Shown here: piece after piece, positions 10,227 to 25,186 of the stretch
Position numbering within the stretch: position 1 is the stretch's first letter
Layout of the letters: every line of letters starts with the position of its first letter
From: Bacillota bacterium
GTDB lineage: Bacteria; Bacillota; Negativicutes; Sporomusales; CTSoil-080
Assembly: GCA_017889635.1 (NCBI GenBank)
Contig: JAGGAC010000009.1
Coordinates: forward strand, 1-64,000
DNA: 64,000 nucleotides
Direction of reading: 5' to 3'
Position numbers and translations under genes: made by a program
The notes under the pieces: generated by a model
What the model saw: only the letters and a program-made list of their open reading frames with translations
Told to the model about the DNA's origin: nothing
Databases searched by the model: none

Positions 10227-10568
10227 CTACCGTGGTACCCAAAGAACCATTCGCGGTTTAGTAATTTTCCCAGCCAGTTCTTCAACAGGTCCATATTCCA
10301 TACACGCCGCCATACAATTTTGCACGCAAGCTGGTTTTTCACCTTTTTGGGTCCGTCCAGCACACAGAATGCAGAGCTCGGTAGGAAATGGTATGTAAGT
10401 AAGATACGCCTTATTATTAGGTAATTCCTGAATTGATTCTATAACCCGGATACCGCCCATTCCAGCCGGCCATTTATATTCCTGAGCACAGGCAATTTCA
10501 CAAGTATGACATCCTGTGCAGTATTCATAATCAATAAGTAACCCGTAACCATTGTTTTTTTTGCTCAT
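10227..10568 (-). CDS. ferredoxin-like iron-sulfur subunit of the molybdoenzyme
   Basis: 113 residues, DmsB/HycB-like 4Fe-4S electron transfer subunit. Cysteine groups: CTGCHTCEIAC near residue 18 and CILCAGRTQKGEKPACVQNC near 68, enough for two clusters arranged across the halves. It ends naturally at KPRMVLWVPR. The start abuts the stop of the catalytic subunit. No membrane anchor gene follows, so the pair probably works in the cytoplasm with a soluble electron donor. Short for the DmsB family (about 200 residues) but typical of the compact form found beside such oxidoreductases in Desulfitobacterium-like anaerobes. Confidence 0.85.
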   Translation of the reverse strand: MSKKNNGYGLLIDYEYCTGCHTCEIACAQEYKWPAGMGGIRVIESIQELPNNKAYLTYIPFPTELCILCAGRTQKGEKPACVQNCMAACMEYGPVEELAGKITKPRMVLWVPR

Positions 10569-13006
10569 TACGCCTCATCTCCTTTAACTTTGTGGACTTT
10601 ACATAGCATATGCTTGATTGGCGAACCCAGCCCATCTTTACCAACGCTGTTCATAGGAATGAGCGTATTAATGTTAGACCTGAAAGTTCCATATAAAGAA
10701 GGTTCACTGCCTTTTTCCTCCGGGAACCACCAACCGTGCGCCGCCATAACCATCCATTCAGGAACTTCTAAAGTTACCTTAGCTTTAAGCTTACATTTTC
10801 CAAACCAGTTTTCTACCCAAACCCACTCGCCGTGGCCAATCCCTAATTTTCTGGCCGTTTTGGGGTGAATCTCCACAATAGGGTCTGGATCAAGCGCCCG
10901 AAGCCAAGGAATATTCCGATGTTCCGAAATAAAGAAAGCAGCCGATCTCCTTCCAGTACACAAAATAAGCGGATACTCCTTTGCTAAATCAGGTCGGCTT
11001 ACGGGAGTAAACGGAGGTTCTTCATAGTGTGCAATCGGCTCCAATTTCCATTCCTCGCGCAAAGTAGAGTAGAGCTCGAATTTCCCGGAAGGCGTCTGAA
11101 ACCCTGGTTTCTTGTCTTTACGCAACAGCCCCTTCTCAAACCTCAAATACGGAGCGCTAGGATGCCCCTCAGGCGGAAAAGCCCATCCTTTCTCCTGTAA
11201 TTCCTTAAAAGACAGACCCGAAGGTTTAAGAATCTCATCAAAAACCTCATGAATAGAATTATACTTGAAATCAGGATCCAGGCGTTTTGCTAGCTCAAAA
11301 TTGATCTCGGCATCCGATTTGCAGTCATCCACTTCAATAACTTTATTAATTGTCTGTAACGGAATCCACCATGACCTGATACTATCCTTCTCCAAAAAAG
11401 ACGTTGCCGGCAAAACAATATCGGCAAGCTGAGCCGTTGGTGTCATAAAAAGATCAACTACTGCAACAAAATCAAGTTTTTTTAAAGCTTCGCGCCATTT
11501 TAGTGGGTCCATTCCAATCCCAGCCAAGGGATTCGTTGTTTGCAACCACATCCCTTTGATTGGATAAGGATCTTCGGAAAAGATTTGATCGATAACTAAA
11601 TCGGTATGAGCCCGCCAGATAAATTTCCCAATCGGGCCGTATTGATCCACCCCTATTCTCTTTTTATCAATTTCCTTAGACTTTAATTTTATGGTTCCCT
11701 CAGCGCCGGGCAAAGCGTAGGCAACCGCATCAAATGCATAGCGAGAGATTACATTACCTCCAGGTATATCAAGATTACCAGTAATAGCCCATAAATCAGC
11801 AATGGCCTGAGTAGTCGGAGTAATCGCCGGGGTCATATCAATAGGCTCACCCCAATGAATTGCCGCCGGCTTGCTTTTAGCATATAAAAGTGCAGCATCT
11901 CGAATATCCTTTGCCGATACTAATGTAATTTCGGCAACCTTATCTAATGAATACTCACTGACTTGTTGGCAAAGCGCATCCCAAACGGTTATACACCTAA
12001 CCTTTTTTCCATCAGCCAAAATAACTTCGTAATTTCCCGTTAAAGCTGGACTTGTATTGGCTGATTTATACTGAACCTCAGTTGTATCCCAAATCACAGG
12101 ACTAGCAATAGACGTGTCCCAAACCACAAAATTACTCGGAGACTCATTTACATCTAATTCATCAGCTCTAAGTAATTTCCCTGTGTCACAACAAATAAGA
12201 TGAGGAGCATTAGTCCATTTTTCAACAAAAGCACGATCATATAAACCTTCATTGATAATTACATGAAGAAATCCCATGGCCAGCGCCCCATCAGTACCAG
12301 GTCTGAGCCTTAACCAATGCTCGGCACGAGATGCGAACCACGATAGTCGTGGATCAATACAAATAATTTTTGTACCTTGTTTCATCAAATCAATAATCCA
12401 ATGCCCAAAAACATTATCCGGACAAGAAGATGGGATATTATAACCCCACACTACTATACATTCCGGCTTCGTATAACGCGGATCATCATACCGCTTGGAA
12501 AACCATTGCGAAGCATCCATAATGCAGTAATCTCCCTGAACTGTCGTTACTGCTGCAATTCGCGGACTATAACAGGCCAAGCCGCTCAAGGCAAACATGA
12601 CATTAGGGCTACCATAAGCATATGCAAGCATACAAATCCAAGCTCCAATATCCCGTCCTGTTCCCATAGAAAAGATTACGCTTTCCGCACCATATTCTTG
12701 TCTGATATGCGAAAGCTTCTCTTCAATAAAATCAAATGCTTCTTCCCATGATATCTCTTGCCACTTACCTTCACCCCGCTCTCCAACGCGTTTTAGCGGA
12801 CGTTTAATCCTATCCTGGTGATAAACATACTGGGTAATAGCCAAACATCTAGCGCATAACCGCCCCTGATTCCATGGATGATTAGGATCTCCCTCAATTT
12901 TTATCAGTTTACCATCCTCAATATGCGCCAATACACCGCACCCGCCGTGGCAGCCAGCTCCAGCAGACCATGCTGTGGTCTGGACTATTCTTCGCTCTTT
13001 ATCCAT
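10568..13006 (-). CDS. molybdopterin (DMSO reductase family) oxidoreductase, catalytic subunit
   Basis: 812 residues, Mo/W-bisPGD enzyme. The N-terminal cluster region has C19, C23, C51 and C54; the canonical first Cys (residue 16) is Gly. Further signatures: GRLCARCLA, the RIKRPLKRVGERGEGKW linker, WEEAFDFI, PECIVVWGYNIP, IICIDPR, and the C-terminal cofactor domain PLILCTGRR...HGWWFPEE. No Tat signal, so cytoplasmic. The substrate is unknown; relatives include DMSO reductase, pyrogallol transhydroxylase and resorcinol hydroxylase. AGGAGAGG lies upstream of the ATG. A T-box leader with its own promoter precedes it, suggesting control by an uncharged tRNA, so a role near amino-acid (perhaps aromatic) metabolism is possible. 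Confidence 0.88.
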   Translation of the reverse strand: MDKERRIVQTTAWSAGAGCHGGCGVLAHIEDGKLIKIEGDPNHPWNQGRLCARCLAITQYVYHQDRIKRPLKRVGERGEGKWQEISWEEAFDFIEEKLSHIRQEYGAESVIFSMGTGRDIGAWICMLAYAYGSPNVMFALSGLACYSPRIAAVTTVQGDYCIMDASQWFSKRYDDPRYTKPECIVVWGYNIPSSCPDNVFGHWIIDLMKQGTKIICIDPRLSWFASRAEHWLRLRPGTDGALAMGFLHVIINEGLYDRAFVEKWTNAPHLICCDTGKLLRADELDVNESPSNFVVWDTSIASPVIWDTTEVQYKSANTSPALTGNYEVILADGKKVRCITVWDALCQQVSEYSLDKVAEITLVSAKDIRDAALLYAKSKPAAIHWGEPIDMTPAITPTTQAIADLWAITGNLDIPGGNVISRYAFDAVAYALPGAEGTIKLKSKEIDKKRIGVDQYGPIGKFIWRAHTDLVIDQIFSEDPYPIKGMWLQTTNPLAGIGMDPLKWREALKKLDFVAVVDLFMTPTAQLADIVLPATSFLEKDSIRSWWIPLQTINKVIEVDDCKSDAEINFELAKRLDPDFKYNSIHEVFDEILKPSGLSFKELQEKGWAFPPEGHPSAPYLRFEKGLLRKDKKPGFQTPSGKFELYSTLREEWKLEPIAHYEEPPFTPVSRPDLAKEYPLILCTGRRSAAFFISEHRNIPWLRALDPDPIVEIHPKTARKLGIGHGEWVWVENWFGKCKLKAKVTLEVPEWMVMAAHGWWFPEEKGSEPSLYGTFRSNINTLIPMNSVGKDGLGSPIKHMLCKVHKVKGDEA

Positions 13007-13121: not shown

Positions 13122-13409
13122 ATAAATAAAAATCTCGTCCCCTCTAATAGGGACGAGATTTATTCCCGTGTTACCACCCAGCTTGTATTTCTACCACTTC
13201 AGATACAAAAGCACTTGCTTTGATATCCTATCCTGTTAACGGTGGCCGCCGGCACAACCTACTTTACGCAAGGAACTACCCTACGGATTCAGTCTGCAAC
13301 TCAAGGGCGTACTTCGTTGTATTCAATTGTCCGGTTTACACCCCCCACCGGCTCTCTGTGCAATCGAATACACTTACTCTTCCCTATCATCATCTTTACG
13401 TATCTATTT
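13122..13409 (-). promoter_or_regulatory. T-box riboswitch leader
   Basis: On the minus strand the T-box sequence TGGGTGGTAACACGG lies at 13180-13166, followed by a terminator with 12-bp arms (AAATCTCGTCCC and its complement, 13161-13130) and T residues; the 5' arm can alternatively pair with the T-box as antiterminator. Upstream is a Stem I with AGAGAG and GGTGG-TG loops, a 12-bp helix (TGTATTCGATTG with CAATTGAATACA), and a specifier loop GAAGUACG at 13314-13307. With the usual GAAN-codon phasing the specifier is UAC (Tyr, 13311-13309); GUA (Val) is the alternative. The next gene downstream is the molybdoenzyme. Confidence 0.88.
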
Positions 13410-18681: not shown

Positions 18682-19299
18682 TTACATTCCCAGAATCTGT
18701 TTTATATCGCTGTTAACATAGTATTCTATCTCTTTTGGCAAGTGGCTAATATCACAAGATCCATTAGCAATTTCCATTCTCCATTGACCAACCTCACTTG
18801 TGATATCTGATATTTTTACTATCCATTCATTAACATACCGTTTAACCATATCGCCACGTATTCCAAGCTGTATGGCTCTTCTATCGATTGGAGCTCCATA
18901 GATATTTCTATCTGGATCCCATTGGCATCTTACTAAAGAATTTTGCAACTTGCTTTTCCATTCATCATGAGACGAATATGTTTTTGCATTAAACGAAGCC
19001 AGAATTGCATTTGCTAAAATAGTGTTAAATCCAGACCTGTCAATATCAATAGCTAAAATTCGTTCTTGTCCAGGTTTTATTCCCCACCCGGCTCTATACA
19101 TCATCCATAAAAATGATGGCTTGATCCATGTCATTCTATCCATCTTAAAACACGAACCAAACGTGCCTAATTTTAAAGCTTCATCCGCAATCCTGTCACT
19201 ATATGCCTGGTAAACTCTAATTGTTTTAGCGTCAAATGCGGCTAAAATCTTTCTTTGTTCAGTTATAGAACTGTTTATATATTTATTCATTGCCATCAT
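18682..19299 (-). CDS. DUF4291 family protein
   Basis: 205 residues. The DUF4291 signature is clear: IRVYQAYSDRIADEALKLG, FKMDRMTWIKPSFLWMMYRA, WGIKPGQERILAIDIDRSGF, and RCQWDPDRNIYGAPIDRRAIQLGIRG. The biochemical function of DUF4291 is not established as far as I know. Three nearby start codons follow GAGGT (19299, 19296 and 19290); the last has the best spacing. Last intact gene of the cluster, 12 bases after the dynamin-partner gene, so co-transcribed. Confidence 0.88.
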   Translation of the reverse strand: MMAMNKYINSSITEQRKILAAFDAKTIRVYQAYSDRIADEALKLGTFGSCFKMDRMTWIKPSFLWMMYRAGWGIKPGQERILAIDIDRSGFNTILANAILASFNAKTYSSHDEWKSKLQNSLVRCQWDPDRNIYGAPIDRRAIQLGIRGDMVKRYVNEWIVKISDITSEVGQWRMEIANGSCDISHLPKEIEYYVNSDIKQILGM

Positions 19300-19311
19300 A
19301 CCTCAAAAACA

Positions 19312-20550
19312 TTATCTGTTCCTATAATACTTCCTGTCTTCTTTTAAAACTTCTTTAATTTGTTGTATTTTTAATAACTGTTTATTTATTGCCTCATCCG
19401 GAAGAGCTGTAATTGTTTCATCATTTATTTTCCAAGCCGCTTTTAACCCTCTGGGTATTTCGTTTTCATACGTTTCGCATTCGTTAATCATCTTATTATA
19501 AAATAACTGTAACCGGTCTTGCACTTTTTCAACAGCCGCCTGTAAAACATCCTCTAACCACCCGTTTAGTGCAGCATCAAGACTATCTTTTTGCTTCTCC
19601 TGCTTATTCCCAAGTATTTTTTCAGTTACTATCAAACCGCCTATACTTGCTACTATCCCCAGCGGGGCAAATATCACGGAAGTAGCAACCGCGGCCGCGC
19701 CTACACCAAGGCGGGAAAATAATTTAATATTACTCAAGTCAGCCACTTCAGCGTCAACTTTTGGCAATAGTAACCCCTCAATATCAAATATAGGCTCTTG
19801 AAAGCCATTACTATCTTGTCGTATTTTTCTTTCTTTCGATATTTGACTTAACCATACCGCATCACTAGCAACCTTCTGCTGCAACTGCATCTCAAATCCT
19901 TTTGTTATTTGGATTAACAGCATGCGTACCCGAAACGGTAAATCCTTCTCAACCCACTCCTTCGAATTTGGCGTATGCCGTAATTCATAGCGCAGTTGCT
20001 CTAATACAATGTCTTTTTGATTATAGACTTTTTCTGCTACCCACTTACTACAATTGCCCGCTCTTTTTTGTACCTCTAGGCGTATGTCCTTCCACACAAA
20101 ATGTGCCTTGTTTTCATTATCTTTCATCATTTTGACCTTTTCTTGCTGCTTCGCAGCCGAAAAAGTAAAACTGAATTGCTTAAGTAATGAGCAATATACT
20201 TCATACAGCTTTCCTTGGGGAGCGGGAATACTGCTGTGGTTATCCAATGCCAATTGTATGGCATCTGCATCCAGCTTTTTACAAACATCACTTTCCTGCA
20301 ACGCAACAGCTTTCCCTTCAATAAAACACTGTATATCAACCATTGCTAAGAGCCGACAGGATGGCCATTTCCAGCAAAGATAACCCCATACATTTAGACT
20401 TGACTCATTGCGCGGTGTCGCTAAAACAGTATGGACAATTGCCCCCTTATCTGTTCTTATCACTAACGGCTTCATGACCCTGGACTCAAGAGTAACCCAT
20501 TCGCGAGTAGGCGGCTTTGCATGAGCAGACTTAATTAAATCCCAAATCAT
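19312..20550 (-). CDS. membrane-associated helical protein, probable partner of the dynamin-like GTPase
   Basis: 412 residues with no Walker A motif. The N-terminal part (residues 1-130) is a mixed domain; residues 130-265 are predominantly helical and charged. Residues 277-310 (GVGAAAVATSVIFAPLGIVA) form a glycine/alanine-rich hydrophobic hairpin like the membrane paddle of bacterial dynamin-like proteins; the C-terminus is again coiled coil (LLKIQQIKEVLKEDRKYY). It lies in the same operon as the GTPase, 3 bases after the C39-like gene. A role as a GTPase-less dynamin stalk/membrane partner is inferred; no homologue is recognised by name. Confidence 0.6.
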   Translation of the reverse strand: MIWDLIKSAHAKPPTREWVTLESRVMKPLVIRTDKGAIVHTVLATPRNESSLNVWGYLCWKWPSCRLLAMVDIQCFIEGKAVALQESDVCKKLDADAIQLALDNHSSIPAPQGKLYEVYCSLLKQFSFTFSAAKQQEKVKMMKDNENKAHFVWKDIRLEVQKRAGNCSKWVAEKVYNQKDIVLEQLRYELRHTPNSKEWVEKDLPFRVRMLLIQITKGFEMQLQQKVASDAVWLSQISKERKIRQDSNGFQEPIFDIEGLLLPKVDAEVADLSNIKLFSRLGVGAAAVATSVIFAPLGIVASIGGLIVTEKILGNKQEKQKDSLDAALNGWLEDVLQAAVEKVQDRLQLFYNKMINECETYENEIPRGLKAAWKINDETITALPDEAINKQLLKIQQIKEVLKEDRKYYRNR

Positions 20551-20553
20551 GCA

Positions 20554-21558
20554 CTACGCTACCCCCTCATTAAGCTTTGTAATTACTGCTTGATTGCCGA
20601 AATCACTCCAGGCATTATTAAAATCTTCCAGTGCAACCATTTCACCGGCTCCATTGCCCCTGCCTGTGTCATTAAGAATGACATACCAATGTCCATCATC
20701 ATTTTGATATATACCTGTCACTTGGGCGGCGTGTCCAGCCACAGCTTGTTCAATCGGTAAGCCATTCGAATCTGCAGCCTGATTCCAAATTTCATTTGCA
20801 TTAAGACTTACAATTACCTTTTCCCCATTTGCCAACGCCGCTTTAATATCTGCTACCGTTAGATCAAATGAATTTTCTACCGGTATACCTGCTGCCTCAA
20901 GAATATCTCCCATTGCCAAAGGACTTGTCCCTGAAGCTGTGTCATACCACCCGTGCTCTTCTGCGAACTTAGCTAATTGCTGTTCTGGAAGATCTATTCC
21001 GGTAATAGACTCAATAACATTCCGCTGCGAAGCAACAGCGCATGAGTAGTCGCCCTCCTGAATATGATAATTATTCATTTCACTTTGATGGTCATCAAGC
21101 AACTGATCGCCAAGCATTTGGTGGCTAATCCCCGTGTCAAGTGACGATTGATCTAAATTATAAGGATCTACATAGGTTGGGTCAAAATCATGATTGGAGT
21201 TGGGTAGATTACTGTCCAAAAGTACCGAGGAAGCATTCCTTAGAGCATCATCGGCAATATTTTTAGCCTGATTATATTCTAATAAATTTGTCTCCATTTC
21301 AAGACGGTTGGTTGGCTCACTGTCCAAAAGTATCGAAGAAGCATTTCTAAAAACATCTACTGCCATATACTTTAACTGATTATACTCTAATGAGTTTGCG
21401 CCCATATTATAGCAATAGGTTGGCCCACTGTCTAGAAGTACCGAAGAAGCATTCCTAAGAGCATCGTCGGCAACATTTTTGGCCTGGTTATATTCTAATA
21501 AATCATCATCGATATTATGGTATTGTTGAGAATGCAATAATGAAAATAAGTCAAACAT
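20554..21558 (-). CDS. repeat-bearing protein with C39-like papain-fold domain
   Basis: 334 residues from MFDLFSLLHSQQYHN; AGGAG lies 8 bases before this ATG, so a longer upstream frame is rejected. Residues 20-130 hold three tandem repeats of about 36 residues (LLEYNQAKNVADDALRNASS, then VLLDS...). Residues 185-330 form a C39-like peptidase domain: catalytic Cys in GDYSCAVASQ, then EEHGWYDTASGTSPLAMGDI, His in VAGHAAQVTGIY and Asp in VILNDTGRG. Such domains cleave leader peptides or act as non-catalytic binding modules. No signal peptide. Ten bases downstream of the FVTNSSSS protein. Confidence 0.75.
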   Translation of the reverse strand: MFDLFSLLHSQQYHNIDDDLLEYNQAKNVADDALRNASSVLLDSGPTYCYNMGANSLEYNQLKYMAVDVFRNASSILLDSEPTNRLEMETNLLEYNQAKNIADDALRNASSVLLDSNLPNSNHDFDPTYVDPYNLDQSSLDTGISHQMLGDQLLDDHQSEMNNYHIQEGDYSCAVASQRNVIESITGIDLPEQQLAKFAEEHGWYDTASGTSPLAMGDILEAAGIPVENSFDLTVADIKAALANGEKVIVSLNANEIWNQAADSNGLPIEQAVAGHAAQVTGIYQNDDGHWYVILNDTGRGNGAGEMVALEDFNNAWSDFGNQAVITKLNEGVA

Positions 21559-21568
21559 ATTATTTCTC

Positions 21569-21892
21569 CTAAATATCAAGATCGATCTTTGGGCATTCGA
21601 TATCACTATCGTATTCACATAAAATGTCGTCTAATTGTGGATTATACCTCCCTGCATCATAGCTAACCCAAACATGCATGATATCTCCGCCGCTGTAGTC
21701 TACAAGATAGTAAAGTTGATCAAAATCACAGTCATTGTTGTACATTTTCATTATTTCTGCTACTGTTACACTTTTACAACAACAAGTAATTAGTTTCTTG
21801 TACGCTTCCTTCTTTTGCACGTCTATTTCACTTAGATTAACCACAAAACAGCTGCTGCTGCTATTGGTTACAAATGAACTTCTGATTTTCAC
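21569..21892 (-). CDS. small protein with N-terminal FVTNSSSS motif
   Basis: 107 residues, GTG start overlapping the stop of the radical SAM gene (TAGTG), so translation is coupled. It begins MKIRSSFVTNSSSSCFVV, the motif (usual form FVSNSSSSSF) that I recall at the start of many otherwise unrelated bacterial and phage proteins. The rest is acidic with a Cys triplet (LITCCCKS) and DDILCEYDSDIECPK. No domain recognised. Tight coupling to a radical SAM enzyme makes it a candidate substrate or accessory protein (inference). Confidence 0.7.
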   Translation of the reverse strand: MKIRSSFVTNSSSSCFVVNLSEIDVQKKEAYKKLITCCCKSVTVAEIMKMYNNDCDFDQLYYLVDYSGGDIMHVWVSYDAGRYNPQLDDILCEYDSDIECPKIDLDI

Positions 21893-22944
21893 TATACAGT
21901 CCTCACCTTTCGATTACATAAGACAATCCCGCGTTCTAACGGACAGCCGCTTTTGCAAATCTCATGTTTATCACATACTGTACAATTAGTTTTCATATGA
22001 CTTCTAAACTCATCGAAACTGCCGGAGTCCCATGCATCCTGAATAGTAAATAAATTAAGATCGACACTATAGTTGTGACTTTGATCAAAACTACAGGGAA
22101 CTGCAATCATATCTGGTGAAATATACATCGAGTACCTTGCGCCTTCACAAGTGTCCACCGTATCAAAATTTATATCTGCATAATTCACAAGCCCAGGGAT
22201 AGTACATGAATCGAACCCAATTTTAAATTGATGTTTCTTTGCTACTAAACCAAAGAACTCATTAAGCCTTGGGTAATCTATATGCAATATTGCCTCTTTA
22301 CTACCGCAGCCAACAGGTTTATGCAGCAGAAAGATTATAGCGTTAAACTCTCGAAACTTATATTTGCCTGAGAGAATATCAATCGCTTCATTAATAGACT
22401 CATTGGATAACACATAATGAATATTGGTTGTGCATCCTGCATCTAGAAAACTGTTTAATGCTCTAAAAGTATAATTCTGCCGGTACCAACTGACAGCTAC
22501 AGCGCCACAATATTCCTTGGTTAACCTGACTTCCTCGTCAGTCAAATTGAATCCGCTTGTTGTATAATTGGGCACAATGTTTTTGCTTCTGGTGTACTTT
22601 AGGATTTGTGCAAAATTCTCGTGCTTGTTGGGATCACCATGACCACCTAAAGCTATTTGAAAAACCTTGCCTTCACACTGATCAATAATGCTTTTATAGT
22701 TTTCAAGCTTCATATCCGATTTTTGATTATTGGTCCCGCCTTGATAACAGCCTACAGTACATTGAGTAGCATGAGCGCAGCTCCCCATAATTCCAACATC
22801 AATTAACTCAGGAAAGCTTGCCATAAATGGGTCTACATTAGTATCAATGCCATTTTTGATCACTCCTGAACGTATGTAGAAACCGCTCTCGGTATTAAAC
22901 CTTGCCACAAAGCTATTTGCTTTATCTACCTTAACAATCTCCAC
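21892..22944 (-). CDS. radical SAM/SPASM protein with atypical Cys spacing
   Basis: 350 residues, GTG start behind AGGAG. Cluster motif at C56, C62 and C66 (GSCAHATQCTVGCYQGG), i.e. C-x5-C-x3-C rather than C-x3-C-x2-C. The SAM-side motif ALGGHGDPNKHE is near residue 98. The C-terminal SPASM-like auxiliary cluster region has TCEGARYSMYIS, VPCSF and CTVCDKHEICKSGCP. SPASM enzymes usually modify peptides or proteins (thioether links, epimers, Cys oxidation). Neighbouring small proteins may be targets. Second gene of the cluster, 42 bases after the GTPase gene. Confidence 0.85.
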   Translation of the reverse strand: MEIVKVDKANSFVARFNTESGFYIRSGVIKNGIDTNVDPFMASFPELIDVGIMGSCAHATQCTVGCYQGGTNNQKSDMKLENYKSIIDQCEGKVFQIALGGHGDPNKHENFAQILKYTRSKNIVPNYTTSGFNLTDEEVRLTKEYCGAVAVSWYRQNYTFRALNSFLDAGCTTNIHYVLSNESINEAIDILSGKYKFREFNAIIFLLHKPVGCGSKEAILHIDYPRLNEFFGLVAKKHQFKIGFDSCTIPGLVNYADINFDTVDTCEGARYSMYISPDMIAVPCSFDQSHNYSVDLNLFTIQDAWDSGSFDEFRSHMKTNCTVCDKHEICKSGCPLERGIVLCNRKVRTV

Positions 22945-22986
22945 CGTTAGTCTGTCTCCTATTGTTCTTAAAGTTCCTCCTATTGC

Positions 22987-25053
22987 TCACGCACAACTTT
23001 GCATATTTCTCAACCGTTCAAATATATGCAGGATCTCTACATGCCGGCCATGAATTTCACTAATCTGTCTGGTTATGACTTCCTGTTCACTTTTTAAGTG
23101 TTTTGCTTCTTGTTCATCTCGCTCAATCATTTGCTTTATCAAAGCATCATACTTAACAAAATACATATTAATTATTTTATTTAAATCTCGAATAATCTCA
23201 TTTATCATTTCTTCTATTCCATCCAGCACCGAATTTTTTGTTAGCTGAAAGGTTTCTTGAATCTTATGACCCATCTCATTTTTATATCTTGTCTTCTGCT
23301 TCTGTAAAGATGGACCAAACAACTGCCCCAGATATCCGCCAACAGCTCCGCCCAACAAAGTACCATACACAGGCATTATCAGTGTGCCAATAACTGCCCC
23401 AATGCCTGCCCCGCCAAAGGTTTTAAACGCCGTCGTCATGTCATCATCTTTTACCGCTTTTTTCAGCCGGATAAACAAATTGTCTTGTTCATTTTTGAAT
23501 ACCTTAGGAATCATATCCCTATATCTTGCATCACTTATTTTCAGCTTGCCGCCTAACGTAGCTAATGACCGGTACAACACAATAAACTCTGTTTCAAACT
23601 GCTGTAGTCTGCCTTTCCCTAACTGCTGTATATAATCTTGTATTTCAGCCGACTTCGCCAGCAACATTTGCTTGGTATCAGCTAAAACCTGATCAGTAAA
23701 TTTCGTTACAGCCAATTTTAATTGCTCGGCATCTTCCGCATTGTCAATTGCGGTATAAATCTTCTCAACAACCTCTTCACATAAGCTATCAACTAAAGTA
23801 TTAGCGTAATCTTCAATATGCCGCTTACCATTTAGTATATTATTAACATGTAAATCCTTTTGGGAATGGATAAACTTTGACAAATCCTGAATGCTGTTCA
23901 ACGCTAAGGCTTCATGTCTCTCCTTGTATTTGCGATCCATTTCTCTCAAATCACTTTCTAACTGGGTATAAAGTGTACTTAGCAAAAGAATAATTTTTTC
24001 AATTTGAATCAATACCTGTTGCGACTGCAATATGTGTTGTATTCTCTGTTCAACATTTTTAAACTGAACTAAAAAAACATCATTAATATCAGCCTTATTC
24101 TTGTCAGCTAAATTCGCCAGGCTTTCAACAACTTTTTGCGGGGCTGCCGCCAACAATACCACCTGATTAAACCCTAACCTTTGGCACAACCTTCGCTCAA
24201 TATTTTTTATTATACCGCTCCTGTCCTTTTCCCGTATTTGATCCATCTTAGTAACAACAAATATACAGCGCGGCAAAACCTCACTTAGATTTTCGCGTAA
24301 AAACTTGATAAGTGTTTCTGATACGGGAATAGGAGCAGGTATAACAACAACCGCCGCATCGCACACCTCTTCAATTGCCCACTTCGCAATCTCAGTATGG
24401 CGGGCATTCTCTGTATTAGTTCCCGGAGTATCGACAATAACAAGTCCTTTTTTCAATACATCCGAAGGATGTTCAACAGTTACCTTCCGTATCTGCTGAG
24501 CTATTCTTTCATCTGCGCTAACAGAATGAAGAAACTTATCTATATTATTTTTCTCAGCTGACAAAGATGGTCGAAAAAAGAACCGACCTATTTTAGAAAT
24601 AGTCGATATTCCATCATTCAAAAATGACTTTTTCTCACCGCTCTGCGTTTCAATTTTTACATCAAGCCCCTTGCCATATTGCAGCAATGTTGCCGCAGCT
24701 GTTGTTGCCGGCAAAACATCTGTCCACAACAAGTCATCATGAATCAAGGCATTAATTAATGTACTTTTGCCACTAGAAAACTCGCCAACCATAGCCAAAT
24801 ATAGTCTGGGGTCTGCCTCTCTCCTGCGAATCTTCGCAATAAGTTTCAATAGTTCCTGACTGTTTATAAGCTTCTCTCTATGCTGATTTATTAACTTCTC
24901 CGCCAACTTCATGTGTGACTCTACCGCTAACTGCTGACGAATAGCTTGAACTTCATCTTCGTTTTCACAAGGACCAGCCAGATGAATCACTCCTATTATG
25001 TGACCTCTCACTTCAAGTATAAATAGAGCCCCGTCCCCAATTTTGATGTTCAT
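22987..25053 (-). CDS. dynamin-like GTPase
   Basis: 688 residues. G1 GEFSSGKSTLINAL near residue 88, G3 VDTPGTNTENARH near 208, G4 VVTKMDQI near 267. A long helical stalk follows, then a glycine-rich membrane segment (GGAGIGAVIGTLIMPVYGTL, about residues 547-575) and a C-terminal coiled coil with EQEAKHLKSEQEV. Bacterial dynamin-like proteins remodel or tether membranes and often come in pairs. First gene of the cluster. The start lies in the loop of a GC-rich hairpin and lacks a good ribosome site, so initiation may be lower or regulated. Confidence 0.9.
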   Translation of the reverse strand: MNIKIGDGALFILEVRGHIIGVIHLAGPCENEDEVQAIRQQLAVESHMKLAEKLINQHREKLINSQELLKLIAKIRRREADPRLYLAMVGEFSSGKSTLINALIHDDLLWTDVLPATTAAATLLQYGKGLDVKIETQSGEKKSFLNDGISTISKIGRFFFRPSLSAEKNNIDKFLHSVSADERIAQQIRKVTVEHPSDVLKKGLVIVDTPGTNTENARHTEIAKWAIEEVCDAAVVVIPAPIPVSETLIKFLRENLSEVLPRCIFVVTKMDQIREKDRSGIIKNIERRLCQRLGFNQVVLLAAAPQKVVESLANLADKNKADINDVFLVQFKNVEQRIQHILQSQQVLIQIEKIILLLSTLYTQLESDLREMDRKYKERHEALALNSIQDLSKFIHSQKDLHVNNILNGKRHIEDYANTLVDSLCEEVVEKIYTAIDNAEDAEQLKLAVTKFTDQVLADTKQMLLAKSAEIQDYIQQLGKGRLQQFETEFIVLYRSLATLGGKLKISDARYRDMIPKVFKNEQDNLFIRLKKAVKDDDMTTAFKTFGGAGIGAVIGTLIMPVYGTLLGGAVGGYLGQLFGPSLQKQKTRYKNEMGHKIQETFQLTKNSVLDGIEEMINEIIRDLNKIINMYFVKYDALIKQMIERDEQEAKHLKSEQEVITRQISEIHGRHVEILHIFERLRNMQSCA

Positions 25054-25067
25054 TCCAAGGACGGGGC
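25028..25067 (-). promoter_or_regulatory. hairpin enclosing the start codon of the GTPase gene
   Basis: GCCCCGTCC (25028-25036) and GGACGGGGC (25059-25067) are perfect complements; the ATG at 25053 lies in the 22-base loop. It could restrict translation or act as an attenuator. Confidence 0.5.
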
Positions 25068-25139: not shown

Positions 25140-25186
25140 ATTATACTAATTATTATCCTAAACTTATAAGTTTAGGATAATAATTA
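25140..25186 (-). promoter_or_regulatory. 40-bp perfect palindrome next to a -10 box
   Basis: 25147-25186 is a loopless perfect palindrome (half-site TAATTATTATCCTAAACTTA). It abuts TATAAT (25145-25140, minus strand) and covers the -35 position of a candidate promoter for the GTPase cluster. Operator or terminator. Confidence 0.55.

Follow-up and report, generated by a model that had tools for sequence, protein, structure and literature searches.

A six-gene row and its central pair

We analyzed the first 64,000 nucleotides of a contig from a Bacillota bacterium (JAGGAC010000009.1; hereafter, the window) and within this 64-kb window a row of six co-directional open reading frames (ORFs), all on the minus strand and spanning positions 18682 to 25053, which an original prediction made from the DNA alone had proposed to be an undescribed system. 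The six genes, their order, their strand, and their intergenic gaps (42, -1, 10, 3, and 12 bases) were given there exactly as we find them in the ORFs. In order of transcription, the row encodes a dynamin-like GTPase of 688 amino acids (22987 to 25053), a 350-amino-acid SPASM radical S-adenosylmethionine (SAM) enzyme (21892 to 22944), a 107-amino-acid protein with an N-terminal FVTNSSS tag (21569 to 21892; hereafter, the tag protein), a C39-like cysteine protease with three N-terminal repeats (20554 to 21558), a helical orphan protein of 412 amino acids (19312 to 20550), and a DUF4291 protein (18682 to 19299). Family searches agree with the names already proposed for the GTPase (Dynamin_N, 2.8e-26) and the DUF4291 protein (PF14124, 2.4e-67). 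Our main subject is the second and third genes, which we presume to encode a protein-modifying enzyme and its substrate.

The radical SAM enzyme was recognized from its radical SAM and SPASM matches, its tag-adjoined relatives, and its place in a tree of 109 enzymes. Matches to TIGR04317 (1.1e-9) and to the mycofactocin maturase (2.3e-7) indicate catalytic-domain homology to bona fide radical SAM enzymes; the SPASM match (0.003) lies under the Pfam cut-off, and all seven SPASM auxiliary cysteines are present (C266, C284, C321, C324, C330, C334, and C343), the last five being found in 93 to 105 of the 109 enzymes. The nearest solved structures are the peptide modifiers SuiB, PqqE, and SkfB. Alignments place the iron-sulfur cluster motif at residues 56 to 66 (CAHATQCTVGC; 22747 to 22779), a feature that the original prediction had overlooked. 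The spacing of this motif (CAHATQCTVGCYQ) is CX5CX3C and not the CX3CX2C of the radical SAM superfamily, and the enzyme aligns with CX3CX2C relatives at 34 to 41% identity. Across the 109 enzymes, the spacing is CX3CX2C in 51, CX7CX6C in 42, CX5CX3C in 6, CX7CX2C in 5, and, more rarely, CX6CX6C (2), CX7CX3C (1), or, by our count, CX7CX8C (2, from loci L155 and L162); the outer two cysteines are invariant. Variation from CX3CX2C to CX7CX8C inside one family is unusual among radical SAM enzymes. In two virus records (G517 and G557), the radical SAM frame is 782 to 789 amino acids long and contains an in-frame, intein-like insert of about 400 amino acids near residues 73 to 90.

Neither Pfam nor NCBIfam has a match for the tag protein. 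Its tag (residues 1 to 16, MKIRSSFVTNSSSSCF; 21845 to 21892) is defined by position-wise conservation across 88 tag proteins, with the consensus taken as M-K-[IV]-[RK]-x-[DG]-F-V-[TS]-N-S-S-S-[ST]-S-F: N10 and S12 never vary, S11 and S13 are conserved at 98 to 99%, V8 at 94%, and F7 at 92%. Conservation is concentrated in residues 1 to 16, and the remainder of the tag proteins, which range in size from about 84 to 670 amino acids, diverges. The tag is also found fused to a BspA-type leucine-rich repeat protein (L032:11066-12550) and to cysteine-rich, zinc-ribbon-like proteins (L025:12613-13269, L145:11730-12344). The structure predicted for a canonical tag protein has a predicted local distance difference test score (pLDDT) of 87.6 (about 90 after residue 10), with residues 1 to 8 not confident; because the fold beyond these flexible residues is confident, the substrate in the canonical family is likely to be a folded protein whose N-terminal tag is flexible, and not a short peptide. 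This fold has no match among PDB or viral structures at E <= 0.001. The window tag protein predicted alone has a mean pLDDT of 56.5, a low confidence that is too poor to judge its fold.

These properties bear on a possible pathway for ribosomally synthesized and post-translationally modified peptides (RiPPs), along the lines of the original prediction. In such a pathway, the small protein would undergo modification and cleavage by the C39-like protease before its export or its insertion into the membrane. The row does contain the RiPP combination of a modifying enzyme gene with a precursor gene, the usual SPASM substrates are ribosomal peptides, as the nearest solved structures also illustrate, and the cysteine protease gene directly follows that of the presumed substrate. 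However, what is conserved is the extreme N terminus, which in the canonical family is followed by a folded domain; the protease domain matches Peptidase_C39_2 (Pfam, 7.8e-10), and no gene of the row encodes an ABC transporter; and the other loci tested, many of them with a conserved tag, lack the protease. Processing and secretion by the C39-like protein thus found no support, and we consider a RiPP pathway very unlikely.

Association of the enzyme with tag genes in bacteria and phages

Strong relatives of the radical SAM enzyme (37 to 41% identity) occur in five other genomes among 200 relative genomes, and in all five the enzyme gene touches or almost touches a gene with the start MKI[RK]..FV[TS]NSSS. 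From a scan of 84,980 species genomes, 80 enzyme loci were fetched, from Firmicutes, Proteobacteria, Bacteroidetes, Verrucomicrobia, Planctomycetes, and other groups. In 69 of these 80 loci, the enzyme gene has a tag gene on its own strand no more than 2.5 kb away, mostly within about 100 bases; the tag gene is directly upstream in 58 and directly downstream, as in the window, in 9. Several of the 11 loci without a tag gene are cut by contig ends, and one (L089) has a tag gene with a variant start (VRIKMDFVTNSSS) that our tag filter missed. Sixteen of the radical SAM loci (e.g., L027, L042, L047, and L051) also encode a nearby small "VKDIQEYLxLSxxQxIYRWF" protein, probably a DNA-binding regulator.

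Co-occurrence across genomes was computed by searching for the tag DNA pattern and translating the matches to keep true tags. Among the 200 relatives, true tags were found in the same six genomes that carry the enzyme (G000, G005, G013, G027, G105, and G187; 6 of 6, Fisher p = 1e-11), and of 299 phylum-wide genomes, nine carry the enzyme (E < 1e-40) and the same nine carry a true tag (9 of 9, p = 2e-17). A pattern match in G298 of the phylum-wide set was discarded, as it reads KFYITNWSW and is not the tag motif. The tag pattern occurs only a few times per genome in 19 bacterial genomes to which the fetched loci led, and those positions that could be placed fall in radical SAM loci. In the reciprocal search, 37 of 50 virus records picked by tag DNA alone have the enzyme, and many of the 13 without it are short fragments. 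The link drawn in the original prediction between the enzyme and the small FVTNSSSS protein is supported by adjacency and by perfect genome co-occurrence, and no named family takes in either protein. Phages carry the pair, as do many bacterial phyla and cassettes resembling the Avs defense systems, yet neither Pfam nor NCBIfam models it, and no function has been assigned to it. Open-licence PubMed Central papers on the motif, on STAND or Avs proteins with radical SAM enzymes, and on DUF4291 contain no description of the pair; an earlier description elsewhere is possible.

With the window enzyme as query, we recovered 170 phage records, mostly from T4-like phages of Klebsiella, Enterobacter, Cronobacter, and Citrobacter. 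Phage RB16 encodes the enzyme (RB16p156) and, at a distance of about 20 to 23 kb, the tag proteins RB16p106 and RB16p111; 174 phage records contain a homolog of RB16p106, and 174 contain the enzyme, although these are closely related phages and the totals were compared, not the individual records. In PHROGs, the enzyme is phrog_7293 and the tag protein is phrog_7397, both listed as having unknown function. Many of 46 IMG/VR loci have one enzyme gene and then two to six tag genes, so that a single phage enzyme is accompanied by up to six different tag genes in tandem. The C-terminal part of RB16p106 (L144:1111-1578) matches PHROG 132, labeled head-tail adaptor (3.3e-10).

These arrays help to distinguish a substrate from a mere docking partner. 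If the tag were a docking site only, the enzyme would have another target (a nucleotide, an RNA, or a phage protein), with the tag protein serving as its adaptor or inhibitor; perfect co-occurrence would suit any such obligate partnership, and there are weak PADLOC matches to viperin (pVip; 2e-12 for the L066 enzyme and 0.002 for the window enzyme). However, the SPASM cysteine layout, with C266 and C284 in 109 of 109 enzymes, is that of peptide modifiers and not of viperins, and up to six different tag proteins per phage enzyme are expected of substrates; we regard docking alone as unlikely. We infer instead that the SPASM radical SAM enzyme recognizes the N-terminal tag, which is shared by folded small proteins that otherwise differ, and modifies it oxidatively. 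The conserved F7, N10, and S11 to S13 suggest that it would oxidize or cross-link FVTNSSS residues, either through a Phe-centered cyclophane or through serine oxidation, options between which we make no choice. The pair is mobile and abundant in phages, with one enzyme and one to six tag proteins, and its mark may serve several phage proteins.

Sequence kinship makes a phage origin most likely for the window pair as well. The window enzyme is 74% identical over its length to the enzyme of L145, a phage contig of 81 kb that also bears primase and DnaB-like genes and where three tag genes follow the enzyme; in the tree of 109 enzymes, it pairs with L145 (support, 99), next to phage enzymes L155 and L162; and the window tag protein is 43% identical over its full length to a phage relative (L154:11717-12028; phmmer, 4.2e-17).

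Avs-like receptor cassettes and the dynamin/C39 row

Using a hidden Markov model (HMM), we identified a four-gene order in 44 loci: a large STAND protein, a protein of about 130 amino acids that we call B, the tag protein, and the enzyme. The large proteins match Avs2 in PADLOC (1.1e-17 to 1.1e-31, 7 of 7 tested) and differ in their N termini, which include SMEK, trypsin, phosphorylase (PNP), and other domains. A metallo-beta-lactamase (MBL) gene related to LmuA/Avs1a is found nearby in ten loci; acquisition of a trypsin-MBL pair by several immune systems has been described (PMC12799240). Protein B is a tag-less paralog of the tag protein (hhalign, 97.6%, E = 3.4e-12), and at tag position 14 all 43 proteins from STAND loci have Thr, whereas 36 of 44 from elsewhere have Ser. 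On the enzyme tree, at least three separate changes are required to account for the STAND cassettes, and versions with SMEK are located on Agrobacterium and Rhodobacter plasmids. Loci with the cassette (L052 to L060 and L062 to L103) come from many phyla. This four-gene cassette is probably an anti-phage defense system, in which a short STAND receptor would have the modified tag protein and B as its sensor arm. The pair would be of a known kind, in which a radical SAM enzyme and its genetically linked substrate are coupled to conflict systems, and since it is arrayed in phages and placed in immune-receptor operons of many bacteria, it probably signals an undescribed modification of proteins that serves in phage-bacterium conflict. 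A further-reaching reading strikes us as doubtful: FVTNSSS would be the target of this modification, the writer would be a radical SAM family whose cluster spacing varies, phages would mark arrays of their own proteins, and bacteria would guard a modified decoy by an Avs-like STAND protein or, in the window, by dynamin, with interference triggering immunity. Because phages and STAND receptors have the pair in common, the decoy/guard idea is directly testable.

In the window, the pair is set in a different context. The dynamin-like GTPase has a C-terminal glycine-zipper/hydrophobic hairpin at about residues 545 to 586; its best PADLOC matches are LeoA (1.2e-18) and LeoBC (9.6e-17), and among solved structures it matches a bacterial dynamin-like protein (2j68, 5.6e-15) and IniA (6j72, 8.9e-10). 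A bacterial dynamin delays phage lysis in Bacillus subtilis (PMC8844932). The C39-like gene starts with an ATG after AGGAG, with a longer GTG ORF starting at 21618, and the repeats seen earlier in this gene are three 98-nucleotide copies at 108-nucleotide spacing (21190 to 21287, 21298 to 21395, and 21406 to 21503). A relative of the C39-like protein (38% identity, 1e-27) is encoded on Anabaena plasmid pANA01 (L329) in a row comprising Hsp70, four hypothetical genes (two of them double GTPases), C39, a 187-amino-acid protein, and two dynamins; Rhodococcus plasmids (L330) have a dynamin-like GTPase, Hsp70, a hypothetical gene, and C39. Because it recurs on these plasmids without the radical SAM pair, the combination of dynamin and C39-like genes is a recurrent neighborhood independent of that pair, which in the window sits between them.

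The remaining two genes are less readily placed. The 412-amino-acid protein has the hydrophobic hairpin that the original prediction noted (about residues 281 to 308, visible in the sequence) and, as stated there, no GTPase domain. Its sole Pfam match (0.0035) is under the cut-off, it belongs to no NCBIfam family, and it has no homolog in the 299 genomes or in plasmids. A weak match in G352 proved to be an unrelated helical, proline-rich protein, and the idea that the protein is a degenerate dynamin found no support (BLAST, 0.046; hhalign probability, 0.2%). An Anabaena protein of equal length (412 amino acids) was not detected as a homolog, and the Anabaena 187-amino-acid protein was dismissed as a bridge to the window protein, as no family was found. 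The DUF4291 protein may be unrelated to the function of the row, and its place in a functional unit is uncertain.

Upstream of the row is a perfect 28-bp palindrome, TTATCCTAAACTTATAAGTTTAGGATAA (25153 to 25180), a candidate operator located just 5′ of a TATAAT-like element and the sole exact copy in the genome; with these two elements ahead of the dynamin gene, the row resembles one regulated operon. A 13-bp hairpin (25028 to 25067, minus strand; RNA fold z, -2.1) surrounds the annotated dynamin start codon, which is therefore uncertain, so that either translational control or a wrongly assigned start is possible. Neither palindrome nor hairpin had been noticed in the original prediction. The synteny of the genes flanking the operon is not kept in relatives. 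Elsewhere in the window, a T-box leader (RF00230, 116.9 bits; 13146 to 13399, minus strand) lies on the same strand as and upstream of a large oxidoreductase-like ORF (10568 to 13006).

The row as a whole is not a conserved system. The loci of the five radical SAM relatives among the 200 genomes all lack dynamin, C39, 412-amino-acid, and DUF4291 genes, none of these four has a relative in the other fetched radical SAM loci, and a conserved six-gene system was rejected, as no second case was found in the 299 genomes or in other radical SAM loci. Of the system originally proposed, the radical SAM/tag pairing and the absence of a named family stood, and the conservation of six genes did not. The proposal had named scattered homologs, or confinement to one strain with transcription breaking between the genes, as grounds for giving it up, and half of this has come about, with the row confined to this genome and the 412-amino-acid protein an orphan in the 299 genomes; the joint recurrence of dynamin and C39-like genes on plasmids that lack the pair offsets this in part.

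Two readings of the row then compete. The one that we favor, with moderate confidence, is that an enzyme-substrate pair of phage type was recruited into a dynamin/C39 operon, where the modified tag protein would act as a sensor or switch and the dynamin and the hairpin protein would work at the membrane, for example during phage attack, the dynamin protecting or destroying membranes once the mark is disturbed. A serious rival, possible though we lean against it, is that the pair is leftover phage cargo that modifies phage proteins and is functionally unlinked to the dynamin, C39, 412-amino-acid, and DUF4291 proteins. Hitch-hiking of this kind would fit the phage-borne closest relatives of both enzyme and tag protein, the occurrence of dynamin with C39 elsewhere without the pair, and the fact that no other locus joins the pair to any of the other four genes. 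It is harder to square with the tight packing of the genes, the 1-base overlap, and the Shine-Dalgarno-like sequence at the stop codon that precedes the C39-like gene, with the position of the pair inside the row and not at its edge, and with the intact frames and the lack of obvious phage structural genes among the window ORFs.

Several observations weigh against recruitment as a sensor or switch. The six-gene arrangement is known from this genome alone, and the argument for a joint function is the spacing of its genes; the 412-amino-acid and DUF4291 proteins are left unexplained; the flanking genes in the window, as read from their ORFs, belong to ordinary metabolism and form no defense island; and the HMM that finds the 44 STAND loci has no match in the window. 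No modification of the tag has been observed so far, and the activity of the window enzyme is itself not certain, given that the canonical three-cysteine spacing is broken. If the modification is real, a short tag at the N terminus of folded proteins would open a new route for bringing radical SAM chemistry to proteins, and the phage arrays, the tagging of folded proteins, and the Avs-like link would, once the mechanism is shown, amount to more than the known kind of enzyme with linked substrate.

Comparison with known systems

The enzymes of this family have the fold and auxiliary cysteine pattern of the SPASM RiPP maturases SuiB, PqqE, and SkfB but differ from them in cluster motif spacing (CX5CX3C or CX7CX6C) and in presumed substrates, which are whole proteins of the sizes given above with an N-terminal tag. 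In place of the RiPP leader with a short peptide core, the canonical tag family has a conserved N terminus and a folded domain. ABC bacteriocin exporters carry their C39 domain on the transporter and cut a GG leader, whereas the row has only Peptidase_C39_2 and no transporter. Prokaryotic viperins lack SPASM, while the window enzyme has the SPASM cysteines and a pVip match of only 0.002.

Like LeoABC, DynA, and IniA, the window dynamin combines a GTPase with a membrane hairpin region; LeoABC and paired dynamins, however, have two or more adjacent GTPases, and the row has a single Dynamin_N protein. The Hsp70-dynamin-C39 rows of Anabaena and Rhodococcus have their dynamin and C39-like relatives only a few genes apart but also hold Hsp70 and other genes and lack the radical SAM/tag pair. 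The cassettes in relatives resemble Avs/AVAST systems (Avs1 and Avs2 in PADLOC) in that their first gene likewise encodes a STAND NTPase, and the swapped effectors are the same, MBL plus trypsin among them. Their STAND proteins are about 700 to 1070 amino acids long, compared with about 1375 to 1920 for the Avs models, and B, tag protein, and radical SAM enzyme following STAND were in no described Avs type that we found.

By analogy, the nearest described logic is that of the FxSxx-COOH peptide and its SPASM enzyme FxsB in VMAP ternary conflict systems (PMC7159879), where a SPASM enzyme is likewise coupled with an NTPase and a small, variable protein bearing a Phe/Ser motif. In FxsA/FxsB, the motif is C-terminal and is cut off by a metallopeptidase, whereas the window row has an N-terminal FVTNSSS and no metallopeptidase. 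The tag proteins also differ from the FxSxx peptide in being folded, and the NTPase that accompanies the pair in relatives is an Avs-like STAND protein.

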